35,489 bases of DNA from Ruminiclostridium sp. (GTDB taxonomy: Bacteria; Bacillota; Clostridia; Oscillospirales; Ruminococcaceae), in contig JAFTVY010000076.1 in assembly GCA_017465545.1 (NCBI GenBank), positions 1 to 35,489 on the forward strand, in the 5' to 3' direction. Position numbers and translations under genes: made by a program. The notes beneath the pieces were generated by a model, which ran no database searches, had not been told where the DNA came from, and was given only the letters and a program-made list of their open reading frames with translations. Below are positions 2,504 through 25,810 of this stretch, piece by piece (position 1 is the first letter of the stretch; each line of letters opens with the position of its first letter).

Positions 2504-2932
2504 TTATAGTTTTTTCAGCATATCGATATGAGGACAGAATTCGTCCATATATTCGTTACCGAATTCCTTGTATCCACACTTTTTATAGAAATTCGACGCT
2601 CTGACCTGAGCGGACAAGACGAGTGAGCACATTCCCTGTTCTTTCGCAAAATCCTCCACCCTGAGCATTATATAAGCTCCGATTTCCTTACTGCGATACT
2701 CCTTCACTACGGCAACCCTGCCGATATGATACGGAGCTTCATTGCCGTAAAGTCTTGCGGTTGCCACAGGTATTTCACCATCGTAGACGATAAAATGGTA
2801 TGCTATTCTGTCAATATCGTCGTATTCTGTGCTGAAGCCTTGTTCGGTAAGAAAAACCTCTTCTCTTATTTTGCCTGCGACAGAAAACAGCTCGTTTTCA
2901 TTACCTTCAAATATAACAGTTTTAAGCTCCAT
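2504..2932 (-). CDS. GNAT family N-acetyltransferase (ElaA-like)
   Basis: A 142-residue GCN5-related N-acetyltransferase, which transfers an acetyl group from acetyl-CoA to an amine. The sequence shows the ElaA-like pattern REEVFLTEQGF and DDIDRIAYHF near residues 23-48, a central strand with VATARLYG, the segment GRVAVVKEYRSKEIGAYIM that binds CoA, and the C-terminal FYKKCGYKEFG. The usual glycine-rich RxxGxG/A loop appears as RSKEIGA. The start is the ATG at 2932; its first base is also the last base of the upstream ATPase stop (TGATG), a classic translational-coupling overlap. A TTG one codon upstream is less likely. The substrate is unknown. Lying between an ABC importer and a symporter, it might acetylate an imported amino acid or amine, but this is inference. 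Confidence 0.87.
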   Translation of the reverse strand: MELKTVIFEGNENELFSVAGKIREEVFLTEQGFSTEYDDIDRIAYHFIVYDGEIPVATARLYGNEAPYHIGRVAVVKEYRSKEIGAYIMLRVEDFAKEQGMCSLVLSAQVRASNFYKKCGYKEFGNEYMDEFCPHIDMLKKL

Positions 2933-3657
2933 CAAAGCACCTTTGATAAGAATTCTTTAAGTCTCGGACTTTTTGGATTAGCAAAGAATTCTGCAGGTGT
3001 ATTCTGCTCTACTATCATACCCTCATCCATGAACATAACACGGGAGGCAACCTCTCTTGCAAAGCCCATTTCGTGAGTTACAACCACCATTGTCATACCG
3101 TCGTGTGCAAGCTCCTTCATAAGGTTTAAAACCTCGCCTACCATTTCAGGATCGAGCGCAGACGTAGGCTCATCGAAAAGCATTATTTCAGGATTCATTG
3201 CAAGAGAACGTGCAATTGCAATTCTCTGCTTCTGTCCGCCTGAAAGCTGGTTAGGATACTGATTTGCTTTGTCCAGTAATCCGACCTTTGCAAGAAGCTC
3301 TTCTGCTACTCTGTCAGCCTCTTCCTGCGTCATAAGCTTTAATTTCACGGGTGCAAGAGTTATATTTTTCTTGATTGTAAGATGCGGGAAAAGATTGAAA
3401 TGCTGGAACACCATACCCATTCTGCGTCTTATAAGATTTACTTCTTTTTCAGGAAGGCGTGTAATATACACACCGTCAACAAAGATTTCACCTGAAGTAG
3501 GTCTTTCCATTAAGTTAAGGCATCTTAAAAAGGTACTCTTACCGGAACCCGAAGGACCTACTATAACTACCTTTTCGCCCTTTTCAATAGTTTCTGTAAT
3601 ATCCTTTAAAACGTGAAGCTTATTAAAGGACTTGTTAAGATTGTTAACGTTTATCAT
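2932..3657 (-). CDS. Polar amino acid ABC transporter, ATP-binding protein (GlnQ/HisP type)
   Basis: A 241-residue cytoplasmic ATPase that powers the adjacent amino acid permease. Motifs in order: Walker [10 protein letters not shown] (about residue 34), Q-loop [11 protein letters not shown] (about 84), signature [15 protein letters not shown] (about 142), Walker [14 protein letters not shown] with the catalytic Glu (about 162), and switch histidine VVVTHEMGF (about 195). This is a complete set of the amino-acid-uptake subfamily (GlnQ, ArtP, HisP). The start is the ATG at 3657, with AAAGGAG about 11 bases upstream; the TTG at 3678 overlaps that site and is rejected. The gene overlaps the permease end by 14 bases and the GNAT start by one base, so the three genes are tightly coupled. 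Confidence 0.95.
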
Positions 3658-4357
3658 TTTTTGCAAGTCTCCTTTCAAGCTTTGTTACAAGGAACGATAA
3701 GAACATTACCATTACAAGATAAATAACAGCTACTGCGATAAGAGGAAGGAATGCTTCATAGGTAAGGCTTCTGATGATATCGCCGCCCTTTGTAAGGTCG
3801 GAAATAGCAATATAGCCTGATACGGAGGTTTCCTTCAGCAGAACGATAAATTCATTTGCAAGAGCAGGAAGTACGTTTTTAAGTGCCTGAGGCAATATAA
3901 TGCTCACCATAGTCTGCATATAACCGAGACCAAGGCTGGAGCCTGCCTCAAACTGTCCGTTATCTATAGACATAATACCTGAACGGACGATCTCCGCTAC
4001 GTAAGCGGCTGAATTAAGTCCGAAGGCTATTACCGCTACAATGAGCTTATCTATATCAAAGGAACCGAAAATTACGAAGTAGATGATAAGCAGCTGAACT
4101 ACAACAGGTGTACCTCTGATTACTGTCAGATACAGCTTTGCTATAACGTTAAGAAATCCAAGCTTACCCGTTTTATCGTGAGTCGCTCTTATTATCGCAA
4201 TAAGAAAGCCTAAAACAAGACCGATTATGATTGAAAGAAAAGTAATGATGAGCGTGTTTGCAAGACCGTCAGTCAGGTATTGCCAACGGGCATCCTTTAT
4301 AAAATTATCATAGAACTTTTCGCCGAAGTCTGCAAACCACTGCATTATATAGTCCAT
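3644..4357 (-). CDS. Polar amino acid ABC transporter, permease (HisM/GlnP type)
   Basis: A 237-residue inner-membrane permease of the His/Glu/Gln/Arg uptake family. A hydrophobic core starts at about residue 31 ([20 protein letters not shown]), and the EAA loop that docks on the ATPase reads [20 protein letters not shown]. The typical [14 protein letters not shown] motif sits near residue 86. About five membrane helices are visible, and the C-terminus is basic. The chosen start is ATG 4357, preceded by AGGAAGG; the longer GTG-started frame to 4426 runs through a hairpin and is not coding. Only one permease gene is present, so the transporter is probably a permease homodimer. Confidence 0.94.
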
Positions 4358-4450: not shown

Positions 4451-5233
4451 TTACTTCTTTCTTACAACGATAACCTGATTTGCCTTTGTATAAGGATTAG
4501 AGAAGTCAACGTTCTTGAGACGGTCTTCTGTTACGGACATACCTGCAACACCAACGTCAGCCTTGCCTGTGTTTACCGCAGAGATGATAGCGTCAAAATC
4601 CATATCCTCAATCTTGAGCTCATAGCCGAGCTTATCGCAAACTGCCTGCATCATATCAGCATCGATACCTACAACCTTGCCGCCCTCAACAGATTCATAG
4701 GGAGGGAACGCAGCGTTTGTAGCCATTACGAGTGTGCCGTTAGGTCTTTCAACGTTTTCAGGTGACTTGTAAGGATACTGACCGATTTCGTCACCGATCC
4801 AGTTTCTTACTATCTTGCTGAGTGTACCGTCTTCTTCAAGCTCTTTAAGAGCGCCGTTGATTTTTTCTGTAAGCTCGGAACCCTTCTTGATAGCGATAGC
4901 ATATTCTTCTGTAATAAAGGGATCATCAAGAATTTTGAGATCGTCGTTCTTTTCAACGAAAACTTTTGCAGGCTCTACGTCGATAACAACTGCATCAACC
5001 TTACCCTGCTTTAAAGCCTGGATAGCATCAGCGCCCTTCTTGTATCTGTCGATTGTAGCACCTTCTACCTTTGATGCCTCTGCATCGCCTGTTGTACCCT
5101 GCTGAACACCAATTGTCTTGCCAACAAGATCATCCTTGGAATTTACAGAGTTAGGCTTTACTCCGGCGGAGCAACCTACTAACGTTACTGCGAAAATCGC
5201 TGTTGCAACAATAGCTGAAATTATTTTCTTCAT
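4451..5233 (-). CDS. Amino acid ABC transporter substrate-binding lipoprotein, circularly permuted family 3
   Basis: A 260-residue lipoprotein: signal sequence with basic start and lipobox LVGC, Cys21 being the lipidated residue. It captures a polar amino acid outside the membrane for the adjacent permease. Family 3 (SBP_bac_3) motifs are clear but in reversed order. VGKTIGVQQGTTGD (37-50), KKGADAIQALKQGKVDAVVI (65-84) and the ITEEYAIAI / INGALKELEEDGTLSKIV block (107-142) normally form the middle and end of the domain, yet here come first. NGTLVMATNAAFPPYE (165-180), VGIDADMM, MDFDAIISAV, GMSVTEDR and the terminal FSNPYTKANQVIVV normally begin it, yet come last. The two halves are joined by a linker around residues 148-164. 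Total length is normal, so nothing is missing. It has its own promoter and is followed by a hairpin. Confidence 0.93.
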   Translation of the reverse strand: MKKIISAIVATAIFAVTLVGCSAGVKPNSVNSKDDLVGKTIGVQQGTTGDAEASKVEGATIDRYKKGADAIQALKQGKVDAVVIDVEPAKVFVEKNDDLKILDDPFITEEYAIAIKKGSELTEKINGALKELEEDGTLSKIVRNWIGDEIGQYPYKSPENVERPNGTLVMATNAAFPPYESVEGGKVVGIDADMMQAVCDKLGYELKIEDMDFDAIISAVNTGKADVGVAGMSVTEDRLKNVDFSNPYTKANQVIVVRKK

Positions 5234-5302: not shown

Positions 5303-5332
5303 ATTATAGCATACCATAAGCCATAAAGTCAA
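5303..5332 (-). promoter_or_regulatory. Sigma-A promoter of the amino acid uptake operon
   Basis: On the - strand a -35 box TTGACT (5327-5332) and a -10 box TATAAT (5303-5308) are separated by 18 bases. The leader is about 60 bases. It contains a short inverted repeat (5254-5265) just before a purine-rich ribosome-binding site. Confidence 0.85.
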
Positions 5333-5357: not shown

Positions 5358-8321
5358 TTATACAATATTATCAAACTCAGGCAGGCAATGGGTTGCGTCG
5401 GGCTTGAGCGGAGCAACTCCGTCCTTTATCATATCCAGCATAAACGGAACTATCTGCGGATCGAACTGGGTTCCTATGCCGTTTTCAAGCTCCCCTACCA
5501 CCGTTTCTGAGTCAAGTGCCTTTCTGTAGCACCTGTCGCTTGACATAGCGTCATAGGCATCGGCAACACCGATAATTCTGGCAACGAGCGGTATATTCTC
5601 CCCTGCAAGCTGTTTGCCATAACCTTTTCCATCGTATCTTTCGTGATGATAGCTTGCACCGTCGCTGGAGCCTTCAAGCGCCGTGAAATCCTTCAGTATC
5701 TCACCGCCTATAAGGGGATGAGTCTTGATAACCGCAAACTCTTCTTCTGTGAGTCTGGAGGGCTTATTTAAAATTGCATCGGGAATACCGATTTTACCAA
5801 TATCGTGAAGAAGCGCTATGTAATATACCTTTTCCTGCTCCTCCTCGCTCATTCCCATTCGTTTTGCAAGCTCCCTTGAATAGCTTGCTACTCTCATCGA
5901 GTGACCGTTTGTATATTTGTCTTTGGCGTCTATGGTACGGGCAAGAGTTTCAAGTCCCTGCACCACTATACCCTTATATTCCTTTTCTCTTCGTCTCAGA
6001 ATCTTCATCTTATGCTGAGCCGCTATCATTGCTATAAGCACGGAAACAAGCATCACAAGAATAATACAACCGGGAATAAAAAACGGCTGTTCGTATATCT
6101 TCATTTCCTTGTTTATAACAATTCTTTGCTCAGACGTCTTCGTCGGATCAGTCGGATCGTATATTCTGAGAACAAAGGTGTAAGAACCGCCGGGAAGGTT
6201 TGTGTAGCTTATTTCTCCGCTCTTCTGATTGAGAAGAACCGTTTCTTTGTTTTCAAAGCCTTCAAGCTTATAGGAAACGGCAACGGAAGAAATATCGGTA
6301 AAGGAAAGTACGGAAAAGTCTATCGTAACTCTTTTATTACCAGCTGACAAATTCATAGATGTGGGATGCTGGAATATTTCTTCATCCGTCTGGATGTCGT
6401 TAACTATTATCTTCGGAATATCCGTTTCCTTTATTTCAAATCCGAAGTGACTGATTCCGTTTCTGGTTGCCAGATAAATACTGCCGTCACTATCTGTATA
6501 ATGCCACGTATTTGCGTTAAGCGAGCCTGTAAGTCCATGCTTTAAGCCATGTACCTCACCCGATACCTTTTCGCCGGAAAGCAGCTTGCTCTTGTCAACC
6601 GAGAAAACACCGCTGTTCTGCATTATCCAGAGCATTTCGCCCTTATCGCAGAAATCAAATATGCTTCCCGGTCCCTTTTCAAGATTGTCAAGCTTTCTGA
6701 ACTGTCCGTTTTCAAAGTAATAAAGACTGCTACCCGCACTTACAAAATAAGCATCTTTTTTCAAGGTATCAGGGGTGATTCTGAGGATAACGCCTTCTCC
6801 GAGTCCATTTTCAAAGGAATACTTTGTGACCTTACCATCACTTATTCTATATATACCGTCTCCGTCGCTACCTGCCAGAACCGAGCCGTCCGAAGTCTCG
6901 TAAAGGCATAATATCTGCGTAACGTCAAGGCCATCCTCTGCACCGATATTCAGCGTAACCTTTCCGTCCTTTATATAGGAAATACCAAGCTGTGTACCAA
7001 CAACAATCGTTTTATCCGAGGTTTCGTAAATAACCCTTGCACGGTTGCATATAAGTCCGTTGTCCTCGTTATATACGGTAATATCCTTTGTTCTTGTATC
7101 ATAGCATATAACCGCATTATCGGAATACGTTGCAAACCATACGTTACCGCTACCATCAGCAAGAATGTGCCTTATTCTTACCCCTTCAAGCATTTCAGCA
7201 ATCGACGTATCTACCTTTTCCCAGCTTTTGCTGTAAACCATCAGTCCGCTGTCGTGACCTATATAATAATTGTCTCCCTGCTTTGCAATTGCATTCACCG
7301 AAACGGAATCGAGCTGTAAAGCGATACCGTTCGGGGAGCTGTAGCATCCTCTTGTGTATTTGATAACGCCATAAGAGGAGGATGCCAGCCAGTAACTGCC
7401 TTCATAGTCACGAATAGCATTGTTCACAGATGCCGCTTTATCCGTTTCTGCAAACTCGGTAAGTCTTCCGTCCTTATCTATGACCGCAAAGCCTCTGAGT
7501 CCGCTTACAAGGAGATCACCGTTTTCGCTGACTCTGATTCCGTTATGAGTATTGACGTTTCCCGTCTGTATACACTCTTTTGTGCCGTCAGCTCCACATC
7601 TGATAATTACGTTACCTGACGTTCCGATAAGAATATTTCCTTCTTTATCAGCAGCAACACAGTACGGCTCCATAATTGTTCCATCGCTGTCCTCATAGGA
7701 ATAATCGCAGTTTTCCACGCTCATATCATCAAGATTCACTATGCAGACAGCTGAAGTAAGCGCACCCCACAGTCTTCCCGACTTGTCGATGGCACAGCTG
7801 TAGAAGGTTGTCCCGTTGAGCTCTTTGGAAAGCGGAGAAATAGCTTCGTTCTTTATTTCGGCAAGACCTGAATTGGAAGCACAGAATACCCTTCCCTCTT
7901 CATTCTCGCAGAAGCCTCTTATACAAAGGTAATCATTTTCTTCAGTTCCCTTTATTTTTCTGAACTCATCATTTTCGTAAACGTATACACCGATATCGTT
8001 TGTACCAATCCACAGTCTGCCCTTGCTGTCCTCAAACATAGCACGGATGGAAGATGATTCTATCTCACCCGATGTGCTGTAGTTTCTGAACTCACTGCCA
8101 TCATATCTGATAAGGCCACCGTAGCTTCCTATCCAGATATACCCGTCAGAGGTCTGAAGAATATCGTTTGCTTCACCTGTGGGCAGTCCGCTTTCTTCGT
8201 TATAAACAGACGTAACAAAATCACCGAATTCCTCTGCAGTAACCAGCTGTGAAAAGCTACACACAGTTACGATTACCATTGCAAAGAGAATGCATAATTT
8301 ACTTATAATTCTTTTCCTCAT
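5358..8321 (-). CDS. Beta-propeller sensor fused to HD-GYP phosphodiesterase domain
   Basis: A 987-residue membrane protein. A signal peptide (residues 1-30, hydrophobic LCILFAMVIVTVCSF) exports a large sensor built of two-component-regulator propeller repeats (about 35-650; recurring patterns such as DGYIWIGSYGGLIRYDG and SKGRLWIGTNDIGVYVY). A Y_Y_Y-type beta-sandwich follows (about 660-735), then one TM helix (about 748-768) and a short linker. The cytoplasmic C-terminus (785-987) is an HD-GYP domain with HDIGKIGIP (839) and HHERYDGKGYG (892). HD-GYP proteins hydrolyse cyclic di-GMP; here the third letter of the GYP motif is Gly. The layout resembles hybrid two-component sensors, but with a nucleotide hydrolase as output instead of a kinase. 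The start is ATG 8321 with GGAG 6 bases upstream; the TTG at 8369 lies in the promoter. It is a single-gene unit. Confidence 0.93.
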   Translation of the reverse strand: MRKRIISKLCILFAMVIVTVCSFSQLVTAEEFGDFVTSVYNEESGLPTGEANDILQTSDGYIWIGSYGGLIRYDGSEFRNYSTSGEIESSSIRAMFEDSKGRLWIGTNDIGVYVYENDEFRKIKGTEENDYLCIRGFCENEEGRVFCASNSGLAEIKNEAISPLSKELNGTTFYSCAIDKSGRLWGALTSAVCIVNLDDMSVENCDYSYEDSDGTIMEPYCVAADKEGNILIGTSGNVIIRCGADGTKECIQTGNVNTHNGIRVSENGDLLVSGLRGFAVIDKDGRLTEFAETDKAASVNNAIRDYEGSYWLASSSYGVIKYTRGCYSSPNGIALQLDSVSVNAIAKQGDNYYIGHDSGLMVYSKSWEKVDTSIAEMLEGVRIRHILADGSGNVWFATYSDNAVICYDTRTKDITVYNEDNGLICNRARVIYETSDKTIVVGTQLGISYIKDGKVTLNIGAEDGLDVTQILCLYETSDGSVLAGSDGDGIYRISDGKVTKYSFENGLGEGVILRITPDTLKKDAYFVSAGSSLYYFENGQFRKLDNLEKGPGSIFDFCDKGEMLWIMQNSGVFSVDKSKLLSGEKVSGEVHGLKHGLTGSLNANTWHYTDSDGSIYLATRNGISHFGFEIKETDIPKIIVNDIQTDEEIFQHPTSMNLSAGNKRVTIDFSVLSFTDISSVAVSYKLEGFENKETVLLNQKSGEISYTNLPGGSYTFVLRIYDPTDPTKTSEQRIVINKEMKIYEQPFFIPGCIILVMLVSVLIAMIAAQHKMKILRRREKEYKGIVVQGLETLARTIDAKDKYTNGHSMRVASYSRELAKRMGMSEEEQEKVYYIALLHDIGKIGIPDAILNKPSRLTEEEFAVIKTHPLIGGEILKDFTALEGSSDGASYHHERYDGKGYGKQLAGENIPLVARIIGVADAYDAMSSDRCYRKALDSETVVGELENGIGTQFDPQIVPFMLDMIKDGVAPLKPDATHCLPEFDNIV

Positions 8322-8360
8322 AATAACTCCATTCAGTTTCACATAAATATACTCTATTCT

Positions 8361-8389
8361 ATTATACATCTTTTTACCAGATTGTTCAA
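8361..8389 (-). promoter_or_regulatory. Sigma-A promoter of the HD-GYP sensor gene
   Basis: On the - strand a -35 box TTGAAC (8384-8389), a 17-base spacer and a -10 box TATAAT (8361-8366). The transcript would start near 8354, which rules out the TTG at 8369 and supports the ATG at 8321. Confidence 0.83.
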
Positions 8390-17149: not shown

Positions 17150-17800
17150 CTACATATTGAATTTTTTCTTTACCCTTGCCAGCTGTTCCTTTTTCATTTT
17201 TGTGCTCTTTATAACCTTCTGACGAGAGAACTCTTCTCTTTCCTTTTCTTCAAGGGAGTTTGTTATAAAGCTCAGCTGTGCCTCATATTTCGGAATAATT
17301 ATATTTTTGAGCGCATTCGCACGCTTCTGCGTCTTTTTTATCGCAACCGCTAATCTATAGATGCTGTTTTCTATCTCTGCAAGAGCTACCGTCATATATT
17401 TGGTATCGTTAAAGCAGATAACCGCATAGTCAAGATAAGAATTGGTCATAGCAACGTCATACTGGGGTACAAGCTTTCTTTCAGGCAACGTAACCGTAGG
17501 AAGCTCAACGCCCATAACACTGCGGAAGGAAAGCTGAAGCTCCGATTCCTCGGGAACGAACTGCATAAAGGTCGATACAGAGCCAAGAGTCATATTAGCC
17601 TTCTGCAAAGCAAGATAAGCCTTTTCGTAGGTCTGCTCTATATTGTCTCTTACAAGCTTGGATTTATCGATAAGTGCGACCATCTCACGGATAAGAACGT
17701 TTCGCTTTCTGTCCATAAGCTCATAGCCTTGTTTTGCCTGCTGTAAGGAGCGTTTTGTTTTTATTAAATTACCTTTGGTAGGAAAAACCTGCTCAGCCAC
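17150..17800 (-). CDS. ntpD: V/A-type ATPase subunit D
   Basis: A 216-residue central-shaft subunit that turns inside the A3B3 head and couples ATP hydrolysis or synthesis to ion flow. The family hallmark at the N-terminus is visible: FPTKGNLIKTKRSLQQAKQG then LMDRKRNVLIREMVAL (about 7-44). Long heptad-like helices occupy both ends, and the C-terminus is strongly basic (KSTKMKKEQLARVKKKF). Length is normal. The start is GTG 17800 with GGAAGG upstream. It is the last gene of the nine-gene operon, ends 10 bases before a strong terminator, and follows subunit B by 32 bases. Confidence 0.94.
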   Translation of the reverse strand: MAEQVFPTKGNLIKTKRSLQQAKQGYELMDRKRNVLIREMVALIDKSKLVRDNIEQTYEKAYLALQKANMTLGSVSTFMQFVPEESELQLSFRSVMGVELPTVTLPERKLVPQYDVAMTNSYLDYAVICFNDTKYMTVALAEIENSIYRLAVAIKKTQKRANALKNIIIPKYEAQLSFITNSLEEKEREEFSRQKVIKSTKMKKEQLARVKKKFNM

Positions 17801-17832
17801 ACTATCACCTTCCTTTATAATTTAATATAGTT

Positions 17833-19224
17833 TTATACGAATTTTTCAGCCTTTGCAGGATCGTAATGTTCCTTTATAAGCTGTTCACTTACTCTGTCAA
17901 GCTCACTTTCGGGAAGCAGAGACAGAAGCTCCCAGGCAAGGTCAAGGGTTTCGTCCATCGTTCTGTTTTCGTCAAAGCCCTGATTCAGGAAATACTTTTC
18001 AAACATCTGTCCGAATTTCATAATAGCTTTATCGGAAGGAGAAAGCTCATCCTCGCCTATTACCGAAGCCAGCGCTCTTGCATCCTGCACTCTCGCATAG
18101 CAAGCGAAAAGCTGGTTTGTAACGTCTGCATGGTCAGCTCTTGTATATTCTTCACCGATACCGTCCTTCATAAGTCTTGACAAAGACAACAGTACGGAAA
18201 GTCCGGGATATATGCCCGTCTGGTCAAGGTTTCTGTCAAATACTATCTGTCCCTCCGTTATATATGCGGTAAGGTCAGGGATAGGATGCGTTATATCGTC
18301 ATTAGGCATTGTAAGTATAGGAATCTGTGTAACAGAGCCTGTGCTGCCCTCTACTACTCCTGCTCTTTCGTACATAGAGGCAAGGTCGGAATAGAGGTAT
18401 CCGGGGTATCCCTTTCTACCGGGAATCTCACCCTTCGAAGAGGAGAATTCACGAAGTGCCTCGCAGTATGAAGTCATATCCGTCATAATAACAAGGATAT
18501 GCATATTCTTTTCATAAGCTAAATATTCAGCAACGGTAAGAGCGCATCTTGGAGTAAGAATACGTTCTATGATAGGATCGTTGGAAAGATTCAGGAACAT
18601 ACAAACACGCTGAATTGCACCCGTTTCCTCAAAGCTACGGCGGAAATATTCCGCAACGTCATTCTGTACGCCCATAGCGGCAAAGACTACCGCAAAGTCC
18701 TTTCCTTCGGCATACGCAATCTTCGCTTGTCTTACTATCTGTACTGCAAGCTTGTTATGTGACAGACCTGAGCCTGAGAAGATAGGAAGCTTCTGTCCTC
18801 TGATAAGGGTCATAAGGGAGTCTATTGAAGAAATACCCGTATGGATATAGTTTCTGGGATAAGAACGTGCAACGGGATTTAGAGCTCTACCGTTTATATC
18901 TCCGTACTTTTCTGCGAAAACGTCACCAAGTCCATCAATAGCCTTACCTGCACCGTTGAAGGTTCTTCCGAGCATTTCAGGTGACAGAGGGATTTCAAGA
19001 GGCTTTCCTGTAAAAGATATTCTTGTATTATTCAGCGAAATTCCGTTTGTTCCTTCAAAAACCTGAAGCACGACCTTATCGCCCTGCATCTCGACAACTC
19101 TGCCAAGACGCTTTGTACCGTCGGAAAGTGTAATCTCGCCTATTTCATCATAAGCAACGTCCTTTACACCCTGAAGGCATACAAGTGGTCCGTTTATTTC
19201 GCTGAGTCCTGCATATTGTATCAT
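17833..19224 (-). CDS. ntpB: V/A-type ATPase subunit B
   Basis: A 463-residue non-catalytic head subunit, alternating with A in the hexamer. The N-terminal beta-barrel starts [19 protein letters not shown]. The region equivalent to the P-loop reads [19 protein letters not shown], without GKT/S, as expected for B. The segments [33 protein letters not shown] and [20 protein letters not shown] are diagnostic. Length is typical. The start is ATG 19224, with AAAAAGGA upstream; the longer frame to 19263 overlaps the A gene and is rejected. It follows subunit A by 31 bases. Confidence 0.96.
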
Positions 19225-19255
19225 ATCATTTTTTCCTTTTTCTAAACAAAGTACT

Positions 19256-20992
19256 TTATGCAAAGCACTGATTTATATGAGAAAAATATTCATCAAATTT
19301 TGAAAGCTCATCATTGGGAATATCATATTTCATCTTTATAAGCTTATCAAAAAGTCCGTAGCTCATAATTTCTGAAATGGGTTTACCCGCTGATATTGCA
19401 TCCCCCGCCTTATGATACAGCATAAGTATCGCCTTCATCATAAGTCTCTGCTTTTCAAGAGGCACGAAGGTATCATCCTTGTGGAAAGCATTCTGCTGTA
19501 AAAAGCCTACTCTGATAACTCTCGCTATCTCGATTACAAGCTTCTGATCGTCGGGAAGAACGTCAGCACCGATAAGCTTTACTATTTCCATAAGATTATT
19601 TTCTTCGATAAGAAGTGAGGAAATCTCTTGTCTGAGACTACAGAAATCCTTACCCACGTTCTCTGTATAGTAATCTGCTAAATCATCATAATATTCAGAA
19701 TAGCTCTGAGTCCAGTTGATTGCAGGATAGTGTCTTGCATACGCAAGGCTCTTATCAAGCGCTAAGAAGCAACGTACAAATCGCTTTGTGTTCTGGGTTA
19801 CAGGCTCTGAGAAGTCCGAACCCTGAGGAGAAACCGCACCGATTATTGTGACGCTTCCTTCATTTTTGTTCATAGTTTCGACATAACCTGCACGTTCATA
19901 GAACTCGGAAAGTCGTGACGGCAGATACGCCGGGAAGCCTTCTTCTGCAGGCATTTCTTCAAGTCTGCCTGATATTTCTCTGAGCGCCTCTGCCCATCGT
20001 GAGGTAGAGTCAGCCATAATAGCAATATGATAACCCATATCACGGTAATACTCTGCAAGAGTGATTCCCGTATAGATTGACGCCTCTCTTGCCGCAACGG
20101 GCATATTCGAGGTATTGGCAATAAGAACGGTTCTGTCGGTGAGAGGTCTGCCGCTTTTAGGGTCGATAAGCTCGGAAAATTCTTCAAGAACCTGAGTCAT
20201 CTCATTTCCACGTTCACCGCATCCGATATATACGATTATATCAGCATCGCACCATTTTGCAATCTGGTGCTGAGTCATAGTCTTACCTGTACCGAAGCCA
20301 CCGGGAACCGCCGCCGTACCACCCTTCGCAAGAGGTGCTATAGTGTCAATTACTCTCTGTCCGGTAACAAGAGGCTTTGATATAGGGATTCTTCTGTTTA
20401 CGGGACGGGCTGTTCTTATAGGCCATTTCTGTACCATTGTAAGCTCAATTTCAGTTCCGTCTGCATTTTCAATCTTACATATAACGTCGTTTACCTTATG
20501 CTTGCCGTTTTCCGCAATATAAGTAACAGTACCGCTCACTGCAGGAGGTACCATACATCTGTGTGTGATTATAGCTGTTTCGGGACATTCGGCATAAATT
20601 GTACCACCTGATACAGCATCGCCGACCTTTACGGTAATTGTGACGTCAAATTCTCTTTCCTCATCAAGTGCAGGAATAGAGCTTCCTTCTGTTACGTATA
20701 CGCCGCTGATATCGGTCATAACCTTCAGCGGGCGCTGAATTCCATCGTAAATATTTGAAATTATACCCGGTCCTAAAGTGGCGCACATAGGACTTCCCGT
20801 TGCCTCTACAGGGTCTCCCGGCATAAGTCCTGCCGTTCCCTCGTAAACCTGAATGGTGGTAATATCGGAGGTTACTCCGATAACCTCACCGATAAGCTTC
20901 TTTTCACCTACCAGTACCATTTCTCTCATAGAAAAGTCCTTGGTGTCCTTCACCTTTACAACGGGACCGTTTATAGCATAGATTTTATTCAA
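19256..20992 (-). CDS. ntpA: V/A-type ATPase catalytic subunit A
   Basis: The 578-residue catalytic head subunit binds and turns over ATP. N-terminal barrel [14 protein letters not shown], the A-specific non-homologous insert around residues 110-190, Walker [14 protein letters not shown] (231-243), [20 protein letters not shown] (about 253-272) and the catalytic-region [17 protein letters not shown] are all present. The alternate P-loop GGFGTGKT replaces the common GPFGSGKT. Length is normal. The start is TTG 20992 with GGAGG 7 bases upstream. It lies between E and B in the operon. The enzyme may run as ATP synthase or as an ion pump; which way cannot be told from this gene. Confidence 0.97.
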
Positions 20993-21006
20993 GGTCTTAC
21001 CTCCGT

Positions 21007-21597
21007 TTAAAGTGAAAGCTCACTATGATTTGCAAAATCCTTGCGCTGTTTTTCAAGCTGGGAATCAAAGGTGTAATCAAGATAGATATTCTCCTTCGGA
21101 TAGAATACCAGAATACCACCGAGCAGAATAGTCTTGTCAACCGCTGTTCCGACAGTCTTGCCGCCGGCTATAGCTGATATAACATCCTTATCCCCTGCGC
21201 TGTGGTATATAACACAATCCTTATAAAGGGGGATTTCTTTATCCGCTCTTTCTATAAGTGCAGAAAGCTTTTTTGTGTAAGCGTCCGACTGTACGTATTC
21301 CAAAATACGGCTGCTTACTCTTTCAAAAAGCTCGTTCACCTTCTGATTTCTGAAGGCAAGCACGTCCTTTTTAGCTTCAAAATCTCTGTGTGAAAGCTCT
21401 TTGGCGTATATAATGCCGGTATCGTGCTTATCCTGAAGAATATCCTCTTCCTCATCGTGTTTATATTTTTCCTGTGCCTTTTCTACAATCTCTTCCGACT
21501 GTTTTCTGGCATTTTCAATAATCTCCTCTGCAATGCGCTTTGCATCCTCAAGGATTATTTTACCAAGTCTTTCGGCACGCTTCTGTTCTTCAAGCAT
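21007..21597 (-). CDS. ntpE: V/A-type ATPase subunit E (peripheral stalk)
   Basis: A 196-residue stalk protein that, with the H/G subunit, ties the head to subunit I so it does not spin. The first about 100 residues are a long charged coiled coil (AKRIAEEIIENARKQSEEIV), and the second half is a small alpha/beta domain ending LDYTFDSQLEKQRKDFA, where the head binds. Length is typical. ATG start with AGAGGA upstream. The gene lies between F and A, instead of between K and C as in Enterococcus. Confidence 0.88.
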   Translation of the reverse strand: MLEEQKRAERLGKIILEDAKRIAEEIIENARKQSEEIVEKAQEKYKHDEEEDILQDKHDTGIIYAKELSHRDFEAKKDVLAFRNQKVNELFERVSSRILEYVQSDAYTKKLSALIERADKEIPLYKDCVIYHSAGDKDVISAIAGGKTVGTAVDKTILLGGILVFYPKENIYLDYTFDSQLEKQRKDFANHSELSL

Positions 21598-21640
21598 ACT
21601 TTTTTCCTCTCTTAAAATGGATAGAGCTATCCCGCATAGG

Positions 21641-21949
21641 TCAGAATTTAATACCTATAGCTTCGCTTACGTACTGATCTATCGACTGGCTGATACCTGA
21701 CGCACCGTGTCTGTCGGGAATCTCGACTATAAGCGGCTTTGCACAATTCAGCTTCATATCGTAGACTGTATCCCTGCACATATTTATAAGCTTTTCGGTC
21801 ATTAATATAACTCCGACATTCCTATCAGCTTTAGCCTTCTCCAAAGATTTTTTGACCTGCTCTGCCGTATGGACTACAACTCCGTCTATACCTGCAAGTC
21901 GCATACCCATCCGGGTATCGTTATTGTCGCTTATCAGAAAAAATTTCAT
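21641..21949 (-). CDS. ntpG: V/A-type ATPase subunit F (central stalk)
   Basis: A 102-residue Rossmann-like protein that binds subunit D in the central stalk. The pattern KFFLISDNNDTRMGMRLAGI with VVVHTAEQV, GVILMTEKL and PLIVEIPDRHG matches the family end to end. Length is typical. ATG start with AAGGAAGG upstream, 18 bases after the K stop. Confidence 0.92.
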   Translation of the reverse strand: MKFFLISDNNDTRMGMRLAGIDGVVVHTAEQVKKSLEKAKADRNVGVILMTEKLINMCRDTVYDMKLNCAKPLIVEIPDRHGASGISQSIDQYVSEAIGIKF

Positions 21950-21967
21950 AGCAGAGCCTTCCTTCTG

Positions 21968-22411
21968 TCAGGAGAAGAGAATAAGAATAGAAATAAGCAG
22001 GCCGTAGATAGCAACACCTTCACCAAGAGCAACGAAGATAAGGGATTTTGTAAAGTTCTTGTCATCCTCAGAGGTAGCACCAATAGCCGCAGGAGCCGCA
22101 CTACCTACCGCAATACCGGTACCGATGGTAGCAAGACCTGTTGATAATGCCGCACTGAGATACTTGAGGCCATCGCCTACTCCGAGAACGGTCTGTACAG
22201 CCTCAGCGCCTTCTTCTGCCGCAAAAGCGAACACAGGTACAAAGATGCTCATAAGCACCATAACGCCTATAAAGCTACCTGCATTGAGAAGAATTGATTT
22301 CTTCACGTTTACTGTCTTACCATCGTGCTTTCTCTTTATCATAAGAACGAGAGGGGTAATAATAAGTGCGAGTGCGAATAAGGGTAATAAAAATGAAATT
22401 GCTTTTTCCAT
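21968..22411 (-). CDS. ntpK: V/A-type ATPase membrane ring subunit K (c subunit)
   Basis: A 147-residue proteolipid whose ring carries the transported ion. The C-terminal half is a standard helical hairpin: GLKYLSAALSTGLATIGTGI (81-100), then SLIFVALGEGVAIYGLLISI (123-142), with the ion-binding Glu131. The N-terminal half has two further hydrophobic segments (about 6-24 and 39-64) linked by IKRKHDGKTVNVKK, but they do not repeat the hairpin, unlike the tandem duplication in E. hirae NtpK. The second ends in VFAFAAEEGAE, which looks like a signal-peptidase site. The start is ATG 22411 with GGAGG upstream; the ATG at 22426 contains that site. Whether the ion is H+ or Na+ is not clear. Confidence 0.9.
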   Translation of the reverse strand: MEKAISFLLPLFALALIITPLVLMIKRKHDGKTVNVKKSILLNAGSFIGVMVLMSIFVPVFAFAAEEGAEAVQTVLGVGDGLKYLSAALSTGLATIGTGIAVGSAAPAAIGATSEDDKNFTKSLIFVALGEGVAIYGLLISILILFS

Positions 22412-22429
22412 GAGTTTATCCTCCATATA

Positions 22430-24745
22430 TTAAACATTTACCTGAAGCGGTGTAAATTCCTTACCATCGCTGACGTAAAAACGTCCGAATAATTCGTAGA
22501 ACTCAAGTCTCAGTACCTGAATACCTACTATAAAGCCTTCCATACCGATAACAAAAAGGTTACCGATTATCTGGACGATTATCATTCCTGCAGAAAGCTC
22601 TGTTCCTGCAAGAACGTTTACTACAAGCATCATACCTGCGTGGCTCAGGATAAAGCCGCCCACACGAAGGAATGACATTGTATTCGTAAGATAGGAGAGG
22701 CAGGTTTCAAACATTTCGATAAAGCCCTCTACTATCATATTGCCAACGGATTTCTTTTCTTTTACCGTCTTTTCCTGCTTTCCGGAAGCCTTGTAACGCT
22801 TGTATTTTGTAAGCTCGGACGGCATCTTCATTCTTTCAAAGGAAAGACCTAAGAATATTTCGTCTACCTTTGCCTTTTCGCTCTTGGGAGTAAAGTAAAC
22901 ACCGTAGACCATACCATCCTTTTCGGATACGGGAACGAAGGCGTAATCGCTGTTCTTGTGGTATCCGAGCTTCATCTGTGCTTCAGAAGGCATTCTGCCG
23001 TAAACCGCACGTACGTTCTTCATGCTCTGGATGTAATCAAGCTGTTTTCTGAGCTTTCTCGCATCATTTTCATCAAGTCTGTCAGAGGTTCTGATAGCCG
23101 CATTTGCAACTGCAAGCTTCTGTGTCTGCAGAACGTTGCCTCGTACTGCATTTGCTACCACGTGTGCAAGCGGTTCTTTAAAGAACATAATGCACAGAGG
23201 TAAAACTATCAGGAAAATTATATAAAGCGGTGTGAACATCTGTATACCAAGCACCAGCTGTAAAGCCGCCGCCACAAGTACCGATACGTAGAATACCATA
23301 CCTGCTACGCCGTTTGCACCGAATAAGGCTGATTCGTAGTCCTGTCTCTTTACTGAAAGGGTTATATTGAGTATCATACACGAAATAAGCAGTATGACAC
23401 CGATAACCAGAGCCGCAATCAGCAGATACGTGGACACCTGGAATATGTTGTGGGGCTGTCCCATAAGTGTGTAGAAGGGTTCTGAATGGAAAAACGGTGT
23501 TATCAGTTCTTCGTTGCCGAATACAGAACCATACAGCACACCGAATATTGCCGAACTTATACCGATTCGCATCATAATAGGTGCAAGCTTTACCTTTTTC
23601 CATCTGTCAAGTATAAAGCCGAGCAGGGATATTACAAGTCCCTGACCAAGATCTCCGAACATTATGCCGTATAAAAGCATAAAGGTTATAGCTACGTAAG
23701 GGGTAGGATCTATACCATTATAAGCGGGTAGTCCGTACATCTTTACAAACATTTCAAAGGGTCTGAAAAGCCAGTTATTTCTCAGCTTTGTCGGAGGCTT
23801 CATTCTGTCGTCAATAAAATAAGGCTTATCCTCAATCTCTATATCCGTTACAGAAGAAAGAGCTTCCTTGAAAGCACCAAGCTTTCTCGTCGGGATAAAG
23901 CCCGCCATATGGAAGCGATTGTTGATTACCGACACCTGATTTCTCATTTCATAGCTACTGTCAAGGAACCTCAGCTTACTTCTTACCTTCAGGAAGCAAT
24001 CATATTCTCTTTCTTTCACTTCGCTGAGTTGTTTCAGTACCTCTTCACGCTGTTCTTCAAGCTCTGCAATCTGGTGGGAGAGATCAGCAAGAGCTGTTTC
24101 ACCATCACCCGTTACGTAATCAGGAATTCTGATTCTCTCAAAATAAAGTCCGTTGAATATATCATCAGTTTCTGATTTTGTGCTGACAGGAGCGAAATAT
24201 ACACCCCATACATAACCCTCATTTTCATCGAGCGGAACAAACACAAAATCCTTATCAGAATAAAAACTCAGCTTTGTATAGCTGTCTGAAGGCATTCTGC
24301 CGAATCTCACCTTGACGTACTTACAATTTATAATATCCTTGAAGTCGGTATCAAGATTTGACAGATTCTCAATATGGCGCAACGCCTGGTGATACTGATC
24401 GATAGATTCATCAAGGAAGCCCTTGTAGCTTATAAGATCGCCTACTTCTTCCTCTATACTACGGAAATATTCGTCAAATTCGTGCTTAGCCTCCATCGTT
24501 ATTCCGTCGTAGGCTACCGTTTTATCCTCAATACCAAGTCCCTGCGCTATATCTTCCGCTCTTTTGATAAGATTTCTGTAAATATCCTTATCCTTCAGAG
24601 TTTTGAACTGTGCCGATCCGTAGGTCAGCGTATAATAATTCGGCTCAAGATGAAAGCACTTTGTTTCACAGCACCTTACAAGCGTCTTGTTGACCTGCTT
24701 TAACGGTCCGCTGACGGAAACAAGCGACATTTTTTCAACTGCCAA
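22430..24745 (-). CDS. ntpI: V/A-type ATPase subunit I (a subunit) with internal module duplication
   Basis: The 771-residue stator subunit holds the ion channels beside the K ring. N-terminal cytosolic arm (1-320) has an alpha/beta lobe and two long coiled coils (about 85-130 and 215-260). The membrane domain starts near residue 348 (YVAITFMLLYGIMFGDLGQG), continues through helices at 391-411, 437-462, 480-500 and 506-522, and ends with the conserved FETCLSYLTNTMSFLRVGGF (679-698), where Arg694 faces the ring, plus two more helices. Between EPLAHVV and that region is an extra block of about 130 residues (about 535-665). It holds a second copy (578-646) of the module at 144-212, with shared GRMPS, FVP, GVYF and FER motifs. 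Usual length is near 650. The start is TTG 24745 with AAAGGG upstream and the usual AVEKM start. Confidence 0.93.
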   Translation of the reverse strand: MAVEKMSLVSVSGPLKQVNKTLVRCCETKCFHLEPNYYTLTYGSAQFKTLKDKDIYRNLIKRAEDIAQGLGIEDKTVAYDGITMEAKHEFDEYFRSIEEEVGDLISYKGFLDESIDQYHQALRHIENLSNLDTDFKDIINCKYVKVRFGRMPSDSYTKLSFYSDKDFVFVPLDENEGYVWGVYFAPVSTKSETDDIFNGLYFERIRIPDYVTGDGETALADLSHQIAELEEQREEVLKQLSEVKEREYDCFLKVRSKLRFLDSSYEMRNQVSVINNRFHMAGFIPTRKLGAFKEALSSVTDIEIEDKPYFIDDRMKPPTKLRNNWLFRPFEMFVKMYGLPAYNGIDPTPYVAITFMLLYGIMFGDLGQGLVISLLGFILDRWKKVKLAPIMMRIGISSAIFGVLYGSVFGNEELITPFFHSEPFYTLMGQPHNIFQVSTYLLIAALVIGVILLISCMILNITLSVKRQDYESALFGANGVAGMVFYVSVLVAAALQLVLGIQMFTPLYIIFLIVLPLCIMFFKEPLAHVVANAVRGNVLQTQKLAVANAAIRTSDRLDENDARKLRKQLDYIQSMKNVRAVYGRMPSEAQMKLGYHKNSDYAFVPVSEKDGMVYGVYFTPKSEKAKVDEIFLGLSFERMKMPSELTKYKRYKASGKQEKTVKEKKSVGNMIVEGFIEMFETCLSYLTNTMSFLRVGGFILSHAGMMLVVNVLAGTELSAGMIIVQIIGNLFVIGMEGFIVGIQVLRLEFYELFGRFYVSDGKEFTPLQVNV

Positions 24746-24766
24746 AATATCATCCCTTTCTTAATG

Positions 24767-25810
24767 CTATATAATAAGCATTTTTTCTATTTCTGCCGAG
24801 GGTATTGAATATCTTATACCCTCGATTATTGTCGTTAAATTACTTAATTCTATTTCCATAAGCTCTGCAAAGGAAAACAGCACAACGCTGTCATACTGAG
24901 ACAGCATAAGCTTTTTTCTGAAGAAATTGAGCTTTGAATAGCTTACCGCCGTTTCAAAATCCATACCTTCCGTATCCGGGCAGGACTTGAAATAAGGGTG
25001 CTTTCTTATAAGCGTCTCTATCGGCTCGGAATCGGATTTTTCAAGCAGTCGCTTCATATCCTTCTCTGAGAATCTGTAATGATACGGCAGATAGTTGTCC
25101 ATAACCTGCTCGTTAGTCATTTTAAAGATTCCCTTGAGTCTGTAGCACAGCTTCATATTATAAATATCAGCGCTGTGCAGAACGCATTTTTCTATTTCTT
25201 CTCTTTCCTTACCCTGAAACTCTTTTTTTATAGTCGTTGTAAGCCATTCGTGGAAATGCTGTCCCATAACCGTTTCAACTATTCTTATTTCCGGGAACAA
25301 CGCTCCTTCGGGTGTAAGGGGCTTCAGCACCTTATAATAAGGCGTACCTTTAAGAAAGTCCAGAACCTCTCTGAAGGTTCTTGCCTTTACAAGCTCCATA
25401 AACTTAACTTCGCTGTGCTTCTGAAGGAACATAGGAAAATAGAGAATAAAATTTTCATATTCCCCTGCGCTTATATACATTATAGCCTTGATTATCTGGG
25501 CTATTTCCTCACGTTTCAGAAGATAGCGGAAGAATCCGTTTTTCTGTCTGAATTTAAAATTACAAAGCTCGATATAATTACCAAACATCCATTTATATAG
25601 AAGCTGCTCTGCAAGATTTCTGCGTACCGAGCTGTCGTTTACCTCAGCAAAGTATTTTTTATATCCGGGTAACGTTTTTAGTGCCGCCACCACGTAGGAA
25701 ACGTCGCTTTTGCCTGCAAGCTGTCTGTAATCGGACAACGTCAGCATTTTTCCGTACTTGCATCTGGCTTTGGCGACGACTGCAGTTCTACCTGCCGACA
25801 AATTCCTCAC
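24767..25810 (-). CDS. ntpC: V/A-type ATPase subunit C (central stalk-to-ring adaptor)
   Basis: A 347-residue subunit (d subunit in other naming) that joins the D/F shaft to the membrane ring. The N-terminus VVAKARCKYGKMLTLSDYRQLAG and the repeated helical bundles, with segments such as LRNRIAEQLL-like RRNLAEQLLYKW and FSFAELMEIELSNLTTIIEG at the C-terminus, match the family. Length is typical. The start is uncertain: GTG 25810 has only AAGAG directly before it, whereas TTG 25801 has AGAGGTG about 6 bases upstream. It precedes I in this operon; in Enterococcus it comes after E. Confidence 0.88.
   Translation of the reverse strand: MRNLSAGRTAVVAKARCKYGKMLTLSDYRQLAGKSDVSYVVAALKTLPGYKKYFAEVNDSSVRRNLAEQLLYKWMFGNYIELCNFKFRQKNGFFRYLLKREEIAQIIKAIMYISAGEYENFILYFPMFLQKHSEVKFMELVKARTFREVLDFLKGTPYYKVLKPLTPEGALFPEIRIVETVMGQHFHEWLTTTIKKEFQGKEREEIEKCVLHSADIYNMKLCYRLKGIFKMTNEQVMDNYLPYHYRFSEKDMKRLLEKSDSEPIETLIRKHPYFKSCPDTEGMDFETAVSYSKLNFFRKKLMLSQYDSVVLFSFAELMEIELSNLTTIIEGIRYSIPSAEIEKMLII

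Follow-up and report, generated by a model that had tools for sequence, protein, structure and literature searches.

The window analyzed here is a stretch of 35,489 nucleotides from Ruminiclostridium sp. (GenBank assembly GCA_017465545.1, contig JAFTVY010000076.1). Its minus strand carries a gene for a lipoprotein of the family 3 amino-acid-binding proteins (SBP_bac_3; PF00497), with genes for a permease and an ATPase of the ATP-binding cassette (ABC) type downstream. In this lipoprotein the canonical segments are circularly permuted, with lobe 2 preceding lobe 1 (Table 1). Related proteins in Clostridia show the same order and a second rotated order.

Segment order of the binding lipoprotein

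A Pfam search matched PF00497 to the protein with 126.8 bits (gathering score, 26.4) in two stretches. The best stretch aligned residues 168–259 with profile positions 1–92, so that the profile begins where the protein ends. The NCBIfam GlnH model likewise placed its start at the C-terminal side (residues 166–259, profile positions 25–118). In a phmmer search of the Protein Data Bank (PDB), the arginine-binding protein of Thermotoga (6svf) aligned in two pieces, with chain positions 8–104 corresponding to residues 164–259 and positions 113–228 to residues 33–147; the i-Evalues of the two alignments (9e-22 and 6e-24) excluded chance. To read segment order, hidden Markov models (HMMs) were built from 12 canonical proteins for three segments, namely S1 (N-terminal part of lobe 1), S2 (first part of lobe 2), and S3 (second hinge strand and C-terminal helices), and were applied to the open reading frames (ORFs) of the retrieved loci. 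The scan of the window protein gave the order 2-3-1 (hereafter 231; canonical order, 123). The protein therefore matched PF00497 significantly but lacked the colinear arrangement of lobe 1 N-terminal part, lobe 2, and lobe 1 C-terminal part, and because the profile start follows the remainder, it represents a permuted variant of the family.

The chain is cut after the first hinge strand, whose ...QVIVVRKK now forms the C-terminus, and before SKDDLVGKTIGVQ, which canonically comes next and here stands close to the N-terminus. The old C- and N-termini are joined by GDEIGQYPYKSPENVERPNG, a linker of fewer than 20 residues. Every segment of canonical family 3 proteins was retained, and the lipobox (LVGC, with Cys21), the length, and the operon were all normal. 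With phmmer, 84 distinct PDB sequences matched the protein at 1e-8. Among the 60 matches listed, only the tandem protein 6h30 spanned the two halves in one uninterrupted alignment, since there lobe 2 of domain 1 is followed by lobe 1 of domain 2. With a profile of 36 relatives as query, 105 PDB sequences matched, and the 60 listed gave the same picture. The permuted proteins tested emerged from profile tools as partial or split matches.

A first-pass annotation, made from the letters of the window, had proposed a clean permutation with lobe 2 before lobe 1, a cut at the hinge strand, a new linker, and a normal signal peptide, lipobox, and length (260 residues). PF00497, the GlnH model, 6svf, and the segment HMMs agreed with this motif order, the residue numbers it gave for the two blocks were right to within a few residues, and the out-of-order partial matches it had expected from a domain search were obtained. 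At the level of sequence we regard the segment order as confirmed. Its interpretation as a circular permutation is supported by the sequence, by an AlphaFold2 model, and by 73 proteins of the same order (both described below).

Table 1. Features of the permuted binding-protein gene and its operon (window coordinates)
Feature	Coordinates	Strand	Remarks
Family 3 amino-acid-binding lipoprotein gene, circularly permuted	complement(4451..5233)	-	260 aa, ATG start
Signal peptide and lipobox, residues 1-21 (MKKIISAIVATAIFAVTLVGC)	5171..5233	-	From translation; Cys21 invariant in 36 aligned relatives
Residues 33-147, canonical second and third segments (lobe 2, second hinge strand, C-terminal helices)	4793..5137	-	
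Residues 148-163, new linker from old C-terminus to old N-terminus (DEIGQYPYKSPENVER)	4745..4792	-	
Residues 164-259, canonical first segment (most of lobe 1, through first hinge strand)	4457..4744	-	
Permease (BPD_transp_1)	3644..4357	-	ATG at 4357; open frame extends to 4426 with GTG start
ABC ATPase (ABC_tran)	2932..3657	-	ATG at 3657; open frame extends to 3678 with TTG; overlaps permease end
Promoter-like site TTGACT-18-TATAAT	5303..5332	-	11/12 match; TG before second hexamer; about 70 bases upstream of start codon

Operon, selection, and predicted structure

The permease and ATPase genes lie downstream of the binding-protein gene on the same strand and overlap each other, and the operon is intact. 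The locus thus combines a lipoprotein with a lipobox at Cys21 with an amino-acid-type permease (BPD_transp_1) and an ATPase (ABC_tran). Frame 1 of the plus strand across the gene was interrupted by stops. The promoter-like site is a consensus match only, as nine such sites were found in the region compared with 6.9 expected. A search for a riboswitch that might hint at the ligand gave no Rfam match at gathering score within the window. The same genome held one further match to the window protein at E 0.001, on contig C78, with the canonical order.

The dN/dS ratios of the gene against seven relatives (66–97% protein identity) ranged from 0.04 to 0.20, indicating purifying selection. Eight positions (Q44, T47, D85, T172, N173, F176, F213, and R238) were invariant in 36 aligned 231 proteins. 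We take these to be ligand contacts, or neighbors of contacts, of LAO, HisJ, and GlnH, with R238, D85, F176, F213, T47, and N173 presumably contacts themselves (an Arg for the carboxylate, an Asp for the ammonium group, and aromatic and Thr/Ser positions being the contacts expected in the family). Purifying selection together with the invariance of these positions supports retained function. A pseudogene was set aside on the basis of the dN/dS values and the conserved order in relatives. The first-pass annotation had also named an error of sequencing that joined two separate genes as a possible alternative, and the window is indeed one contig of a 112-contig draft genome. The same order, however, recurred in further assemblies at 66–97% identity, among them a complete chromosome, that of Ruminococcus bicirculans 80/3 (L043), and was found in 73 distinct proteins, with purifying selection across the frame. 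This conservation refutes the sequencing-error alternative, and a joining of two genes or gene halves by assembly or sequencing is exceedingly improbable.

We then considered the relation of the permuted proteins to their permeases. A permease on the same strand within the retrieved stretch, or fused to the binding protein, accompanied 72 of the 73 distinct 231 proteins and 57 of the 58 proteins of the second rotated order (3-1-2, hereafter 312); both permease and ATPase were present for 69/73 and 55/58, some stretches ending early. A same-genus search with the window permease matched 31 of 60 genomes. All 17 permeases at 70–100% identity, including the query itself, were paired with a 231 gene, and all seven unfused permeases at 45–52% identity (L146–L151 and L154) with a canonical gene; the remaining rows (42–49% identity) were fused frames retrieved only in part. 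Our conclusion is that the permuted protein probably supplies its own permease. The lipobox pattern was present in 71/73 of the 231 proteins and 58/58 of the 312 proteins. The two without it (L079 and L168) are fused to a permease, which in any case keeps them at the membrane. Receptor roles occur among binding proteins of this type, and a permuted protein that no longer transports might act as a sensor or decoy receptor. The near-constant presence of the permease and the six rotated proteins fused to one (231 in L079, L080, L152, L166, and L168; 312 in L126) argue against this role, which we consider quite unlikely.

The gene very probably encodes a functional amino-acid-binding protein with a lipid anchor and a circularly permuted chain, which together with the permease and the ATPase makes up an ABC importer. 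Judged by family membership, the ligand would be a polar amino acid. The protein may close on it like a Venus flytrap and, once loaded, pass it to the permease. Of the two hinge crossings, one would now consist of two free ends, and the lipid anchor would exit at the hinge/lobe-2 side rather than from lobe 1.

The first-pass annotation had suggested structure prediction, and AlphaFold2, run with 36 locus proteins, gave a confident fold (mean predicted local distance difference test score [pLDDT], 91.1; predicted template modeling score [pTM], 0.82). Each ten-residue block from residue 31 onward exceeded a pLDDT of 90. In a Foldseek search with this model, the best E-value among the 50 rows listed belonged to 6h30, the tandem SBD1-SBD2 of GlnPQ, which holds the segment order of the window protein between its two domains. 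Amino-acid binders among these rows reached template modeling (TM) scores of 0.41–0.43 (by query) at 10–16% identity, and Foldseek gave no clean sequential superposition of the model on known folds. Weak sequential TM scores despite a clear sequence match of the halves are expected for a permuted chain.

Two neighboring regions of the window were also recorded. The minus strand at 5358–8369 encodes a protein of 1003 aa. It carries regulator propeller repeats, a Y_Y_Y domain, and an HD_5 (HD-GYP-like) domain, and a membrane segment probably lies between these parts. From its domains it is probably a propeller sensor joined to a cyclic-di-GMP phosphodiesterase rather than to a kinase. A run of genes at 17150–25810 on the same strand resembled a V/A-type ATPase, as judged by eye from the translations only.

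Distribution and evolution of the rotated orders

After removal of identical cores, the distinct single-domain proteins in the loci up to L212 numbered 73 for 231, 58 for 312, and 43 for 123. Tandem and irregular ORFs (patterns 123123, 123123123, 231231, 23131, 2313121, 3123131231, 31231, 3112, 31, and 13) were excluded from this tally and, apart from the units mentioned below, from the trees. Among 38 loci from named genomes, ten had the order 231, 24 were canonical, and two were canonical with a weak S2 that was missed; the others were the tandem L042 and L069, in which only S3 and S1 were recognized. In a survey of the taxonomic order, the window protein matched 41 of 394 genomes at E 1e-36, yielding 26 loci with 231 (24 new ones plus L001 and L012) and four tandem canonical-permease fusions, with 13 listed rows outside the order reading. 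A 312 query matched 32 of the 394 genomes at 1e-45, yielding 27 loci with 312, L117 (312 with an insertion), and L122 and L128 (both 231), with two rows outside the order reading. At the class level, the window protein matched 34 of 391 genomes (23 with 231, seven with 312, and four rows unread for order), and the 312 query matched 28 at 1e-40, all 28 with 312 and including the one-contig genomes G626, G654, and G773. At the phylum level, four of 299 genomes matched, three with 231 (one of them, L213, in another class) and one canonical. These surveys overlap, and their counts are lower bounds at strict thresholds. The first-pass annotation had proposed surveying Clostridia for the same order, and the 73 distinct 231 proteins answer that proposal.

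The 312 form (L027 and relatives) begins at the second hinge strand, with the consensus VKVIDIxLTxEEYAFGV, and is cut inside lobe 2. Next come the C-terminal helices and a linker, then lobe 1 and the initial part of lobe 2, and the chain ends after the helix that canonically precedes the second hinge strand. In 26 aligned 312 proteins, T105, F109, R171, Q222, T226, and D270 were retained at the positions corresponding to those conserved in 231 proteins. AlphaFold2 gave a pLDDT of 92.6 and a pTM of 0.80 for this form, and Foldseek superposed about 185 columns on glutamine-bound GlnBP (8eyz rows) at 2.0–2.4 Å. This number approximates the combined length of S1 and S2, suggesting that S3 was left out of the superposition. 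Open, ligand-free targets such as 1ggg and 4prs fitted the model less well (5.6–7.7 Å). A third, nearby cut site occurred in the 231 proteins L122, L125 (585–1451), L128, and L093. There the SxDDL-type helix remains behind S1 and the chain begins with the strand (I/V)GVQ, as read in L122, L125, and L093; L128 was assigned by the tree only.

Several loci combined these arrangements. On the minus strand of L125 (G293), two adjacent genes of different rotation (585–1451 and 1498–2367) lie upstream of one permease, a 312 gene followed by a 231 gene with the shifted cut. L093 (G406; 231) and L104 (G240; 312), from the same genus, share a near-identical signal peptide, VVLALVLG[ML]TALWACGG, as if signal peptides had been reused during re-cutting. 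In L014/L157 (G005) and L018/L156 (G029), a lipobox, two 231 domains, a permease, and an ATPase occur in one polypeptide, a whole importer on permuted domains, with the lipobox of the G005 protein immediately before segment 2. Canonical tandem types were also present, namely 123123-permease (L096–L098) and 123123123-permease (L042). These tandem types possibly represent stages of permutation by duplication. Giant binding-domain/permease fusions (L013–L016, L018, L020, L153, and L155–L158) resembled relatives of the window gene at first sight because their matches span domain junctions. L152 is a fusion with one binding domain, and L014 truly begins with segment 2 after the lipobox.

Opposite orders were found at close sequence distance. 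The closest such pair, L077 (231) and L044 (123), shared 75% identity (79% in S1 and 72% in S2+S3), and L044 was also the nearest canonical relative found for the window protein (60%; halves, 62/59). These near-equal halves bear on the alternative that the protein is a chimera of the C-terminal half of one binding protein and the N-terminal half of another, with no permutation. Such a span does occur naturally between neighboring domains of tandem-domain transporters (6h30), and half identities between permuted and canonical proteins correlated at only 0.64. Against this, both the window protein and L077 matched the same canonical protein with near-equal halves, and half identities among 231 proteins correlated at 0.88. 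If one gene was duplicated and parts were then lost, the product would be at once a chimera and a permutation, and is here indistinguishable from a permutation. A chimera of two different proteins is very improbable.

To examine how often permutation occurred, we constructed a tree of 55 of the 174 single-domain rows aligned in canonical segment order. This tree needed eight order changes. None of 200 bootstrap trees made any order a single group, and approximately unbiased (AU) tests rejected a single clade for 231 (p = 2e-7), 312 (p = 3e-5), and 123 (p = 8e-5), rejecting a single origin of 231 and of 312. A permease tree of 51 of 54 loci (three were without a usable permease) needed ten order changes, mixed the orders, and joined L077 with L044/L045 at 100/99. 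The S3-S1 linkers were alike within clades and unlike between clades. Among the 20 linkers shown from the clade of the window protein, 15 contained the motif Yx(S/T)P. It was also present in L077, L078, and L081–L083 and was seen in none of the other linkers shown. On the basis of the AU tests, bootstrap counts, permease tree, and clade-specific linkers, the sequences indicate several independent permutation events in family 3 proteins of Clostridia, giving the orders 231 and 312.

A single ancient permutation behind all rotated forms would require the mixing in the trees to be an artifact of short alignments and long branches. The alignments did hold only 204–207 columns with several long branches, and one linker type was shared by most of the window's clade, L077, and L078/L081–L083; moreover, a single clade of these proteins with L044/L045 was not rejected (p = 0.30). 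The 231 and 312 forms nevertheless require different cuts, and the AU rejections, the bootstrap trees, and the agreement of the permease tree make a single event improbable.

The shared Yx(S/T)P linker points to descent of L077 from the same permuted ancestor as the window's clade, and on this view L044/L045 are candidate revertants to the canonical order. As proof of reversion the pair was weakened, because trees holding the main 231 clade apart were not rejected (test C, p = 0.083; test E, p = 0.47). A larger quick tree added the units of 123123, 123123123, and 231231 proteins and dropped seven long-branch rows. In it, the nesting of L122 and its kin within 312 was starred; the corresponding test F, with three 312 rows of the clade, gave p = 0.072. 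The permuted form probably originated in steps, in which the binding domain was duplicated in tandem and fused and the outer pieces were then lost; both this route through tandem-domain intermediates and reversion are inferences. Taken as a whole, a tentative and rather doubtful scenario is that family 3 proteins were re-cut repeatedly, via tandem intermediates, at at least three sites; that some lineages were rotated twice (L122/L125/L128 in the 312 clade) or reverted (L044/L045 in the 231 clade); and that rotations were kept by selection because each shifts the lipid anchor off lobe 1 and onto the hinge/lobe-2 side.

Several observations weigh against a permuted, transporting protein of repeated origin. 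No single permuted domain was found among the 60 PDB matches listed in either search, and no permuted member is known to us to have a solved structure, a bound ligand, or transport activity. In the Foldseek search, 6h30 ranked first by E-value only (TM, 0.31; root mean square deviation, 19–21 Å), and the glycine-betaine binder OpuAC outscored it (TM, 0.41–0.49 at 15–17% identity), two-lobe proteins other than amino-acid binders, OpuAC included, reaching up to 0.49 among the 50 rows listed. The permuted-canonical correlation of 0.64 compares with 0.88–0.94 within each order. The gene was patchy within the genus, occurring in nine of 36 same-genus genomes (its own included) at E <1e-80. The 12 units of L014, L016, L018, and L155–L157 formed a clade separate from the window gene; the tandem-domain proteins are thus analogs of an intermediate rather than a demonstrated ancestor. 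Tests C, E, and F (above) and test G (p = 0.30) allow more than one number and direction of events.

Comparison with known binding-protein systems

To our knowledge, it is rare for a natural circular permutant to have close relatives of unpermuted order. Three orders and three cut sites occur in the present family, together with an opposite-order pair at 75% identity, each beside a related permease. The family therefore permits direct tests of whether circular permutation is neutral or adaptive, of how cutting one hinge strand affects the motion of a binding protein, and of how anchor position relates to delivery to the permease. Binding proteins have been permuted by hand for biosensors, and the permuted proteins described here could serve as scaffolds for that use. 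Recurrent re-cutting with close unpermuted sisters is a more interesting result than the single gene of the window.

Canonical family 3 proteins (GlnH, ArtJ, TmArgBP, and AncQR) share with the window protein all segments, the contact positions, the lipobox, and the operon. They differ in order (1-2-3 against 2-3-1) and, probably, in the anchor, which in the window protein would lie at the hinge/lobe-2 side. In GlnPQ-type tandem proteins (6h30), the order of the window protein is found in the stretch that begins with lobe 2 of the first domain and ends with lobe 1 of the second. Such proteins, however, carry two or more complete canonical domains in tandem fused to the permease, whereas the window encodes a single-domain lipoprotein of 260 residues with the permease as a separate gene.

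Natural permutation has been described in other binding proteins. Tp0684 (MglB-2) of Treponema pallidum is a 'type Ic' permuted glucose-binding lipoprotein with Gram-positive relatives (PMC4990184), and resembles the window protein in being a natural permutation that occurs in Gram-positive bacteria. It is, however, a type I (cluster B) sugar binder of a different sequence family, its own cut adds a fourth hinge crossing, and one topology is described there. The glycine-betaine binders (2b4l OpuAC and ProX), the molybdate binders, and CysB form a permutation family (PMC2395249), likewise comprising permuted two-lobe binders with a conserved pocket. Any pair in that family shares less than 24% identity, whereas opposite orders in the window family reach 75% and sit beside related permeases. 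Neither the type I sugar-binding family nor the glycine-betaine binder family was among the four Pfam matches of the window protein at E 0.01. Two further papers (PMC9732360 and PMC7683729) did not bear on the question. We found no report of natural SBP_bac_3 permutants in the literature searched, which was mostly open-access and without bioRxiv and is weak evidence of absence. Within that reach, natural permutation was already known for other binding proteins, and what appears to be new is the recurrent, multi-site re-cutting within SBP_bac_3.
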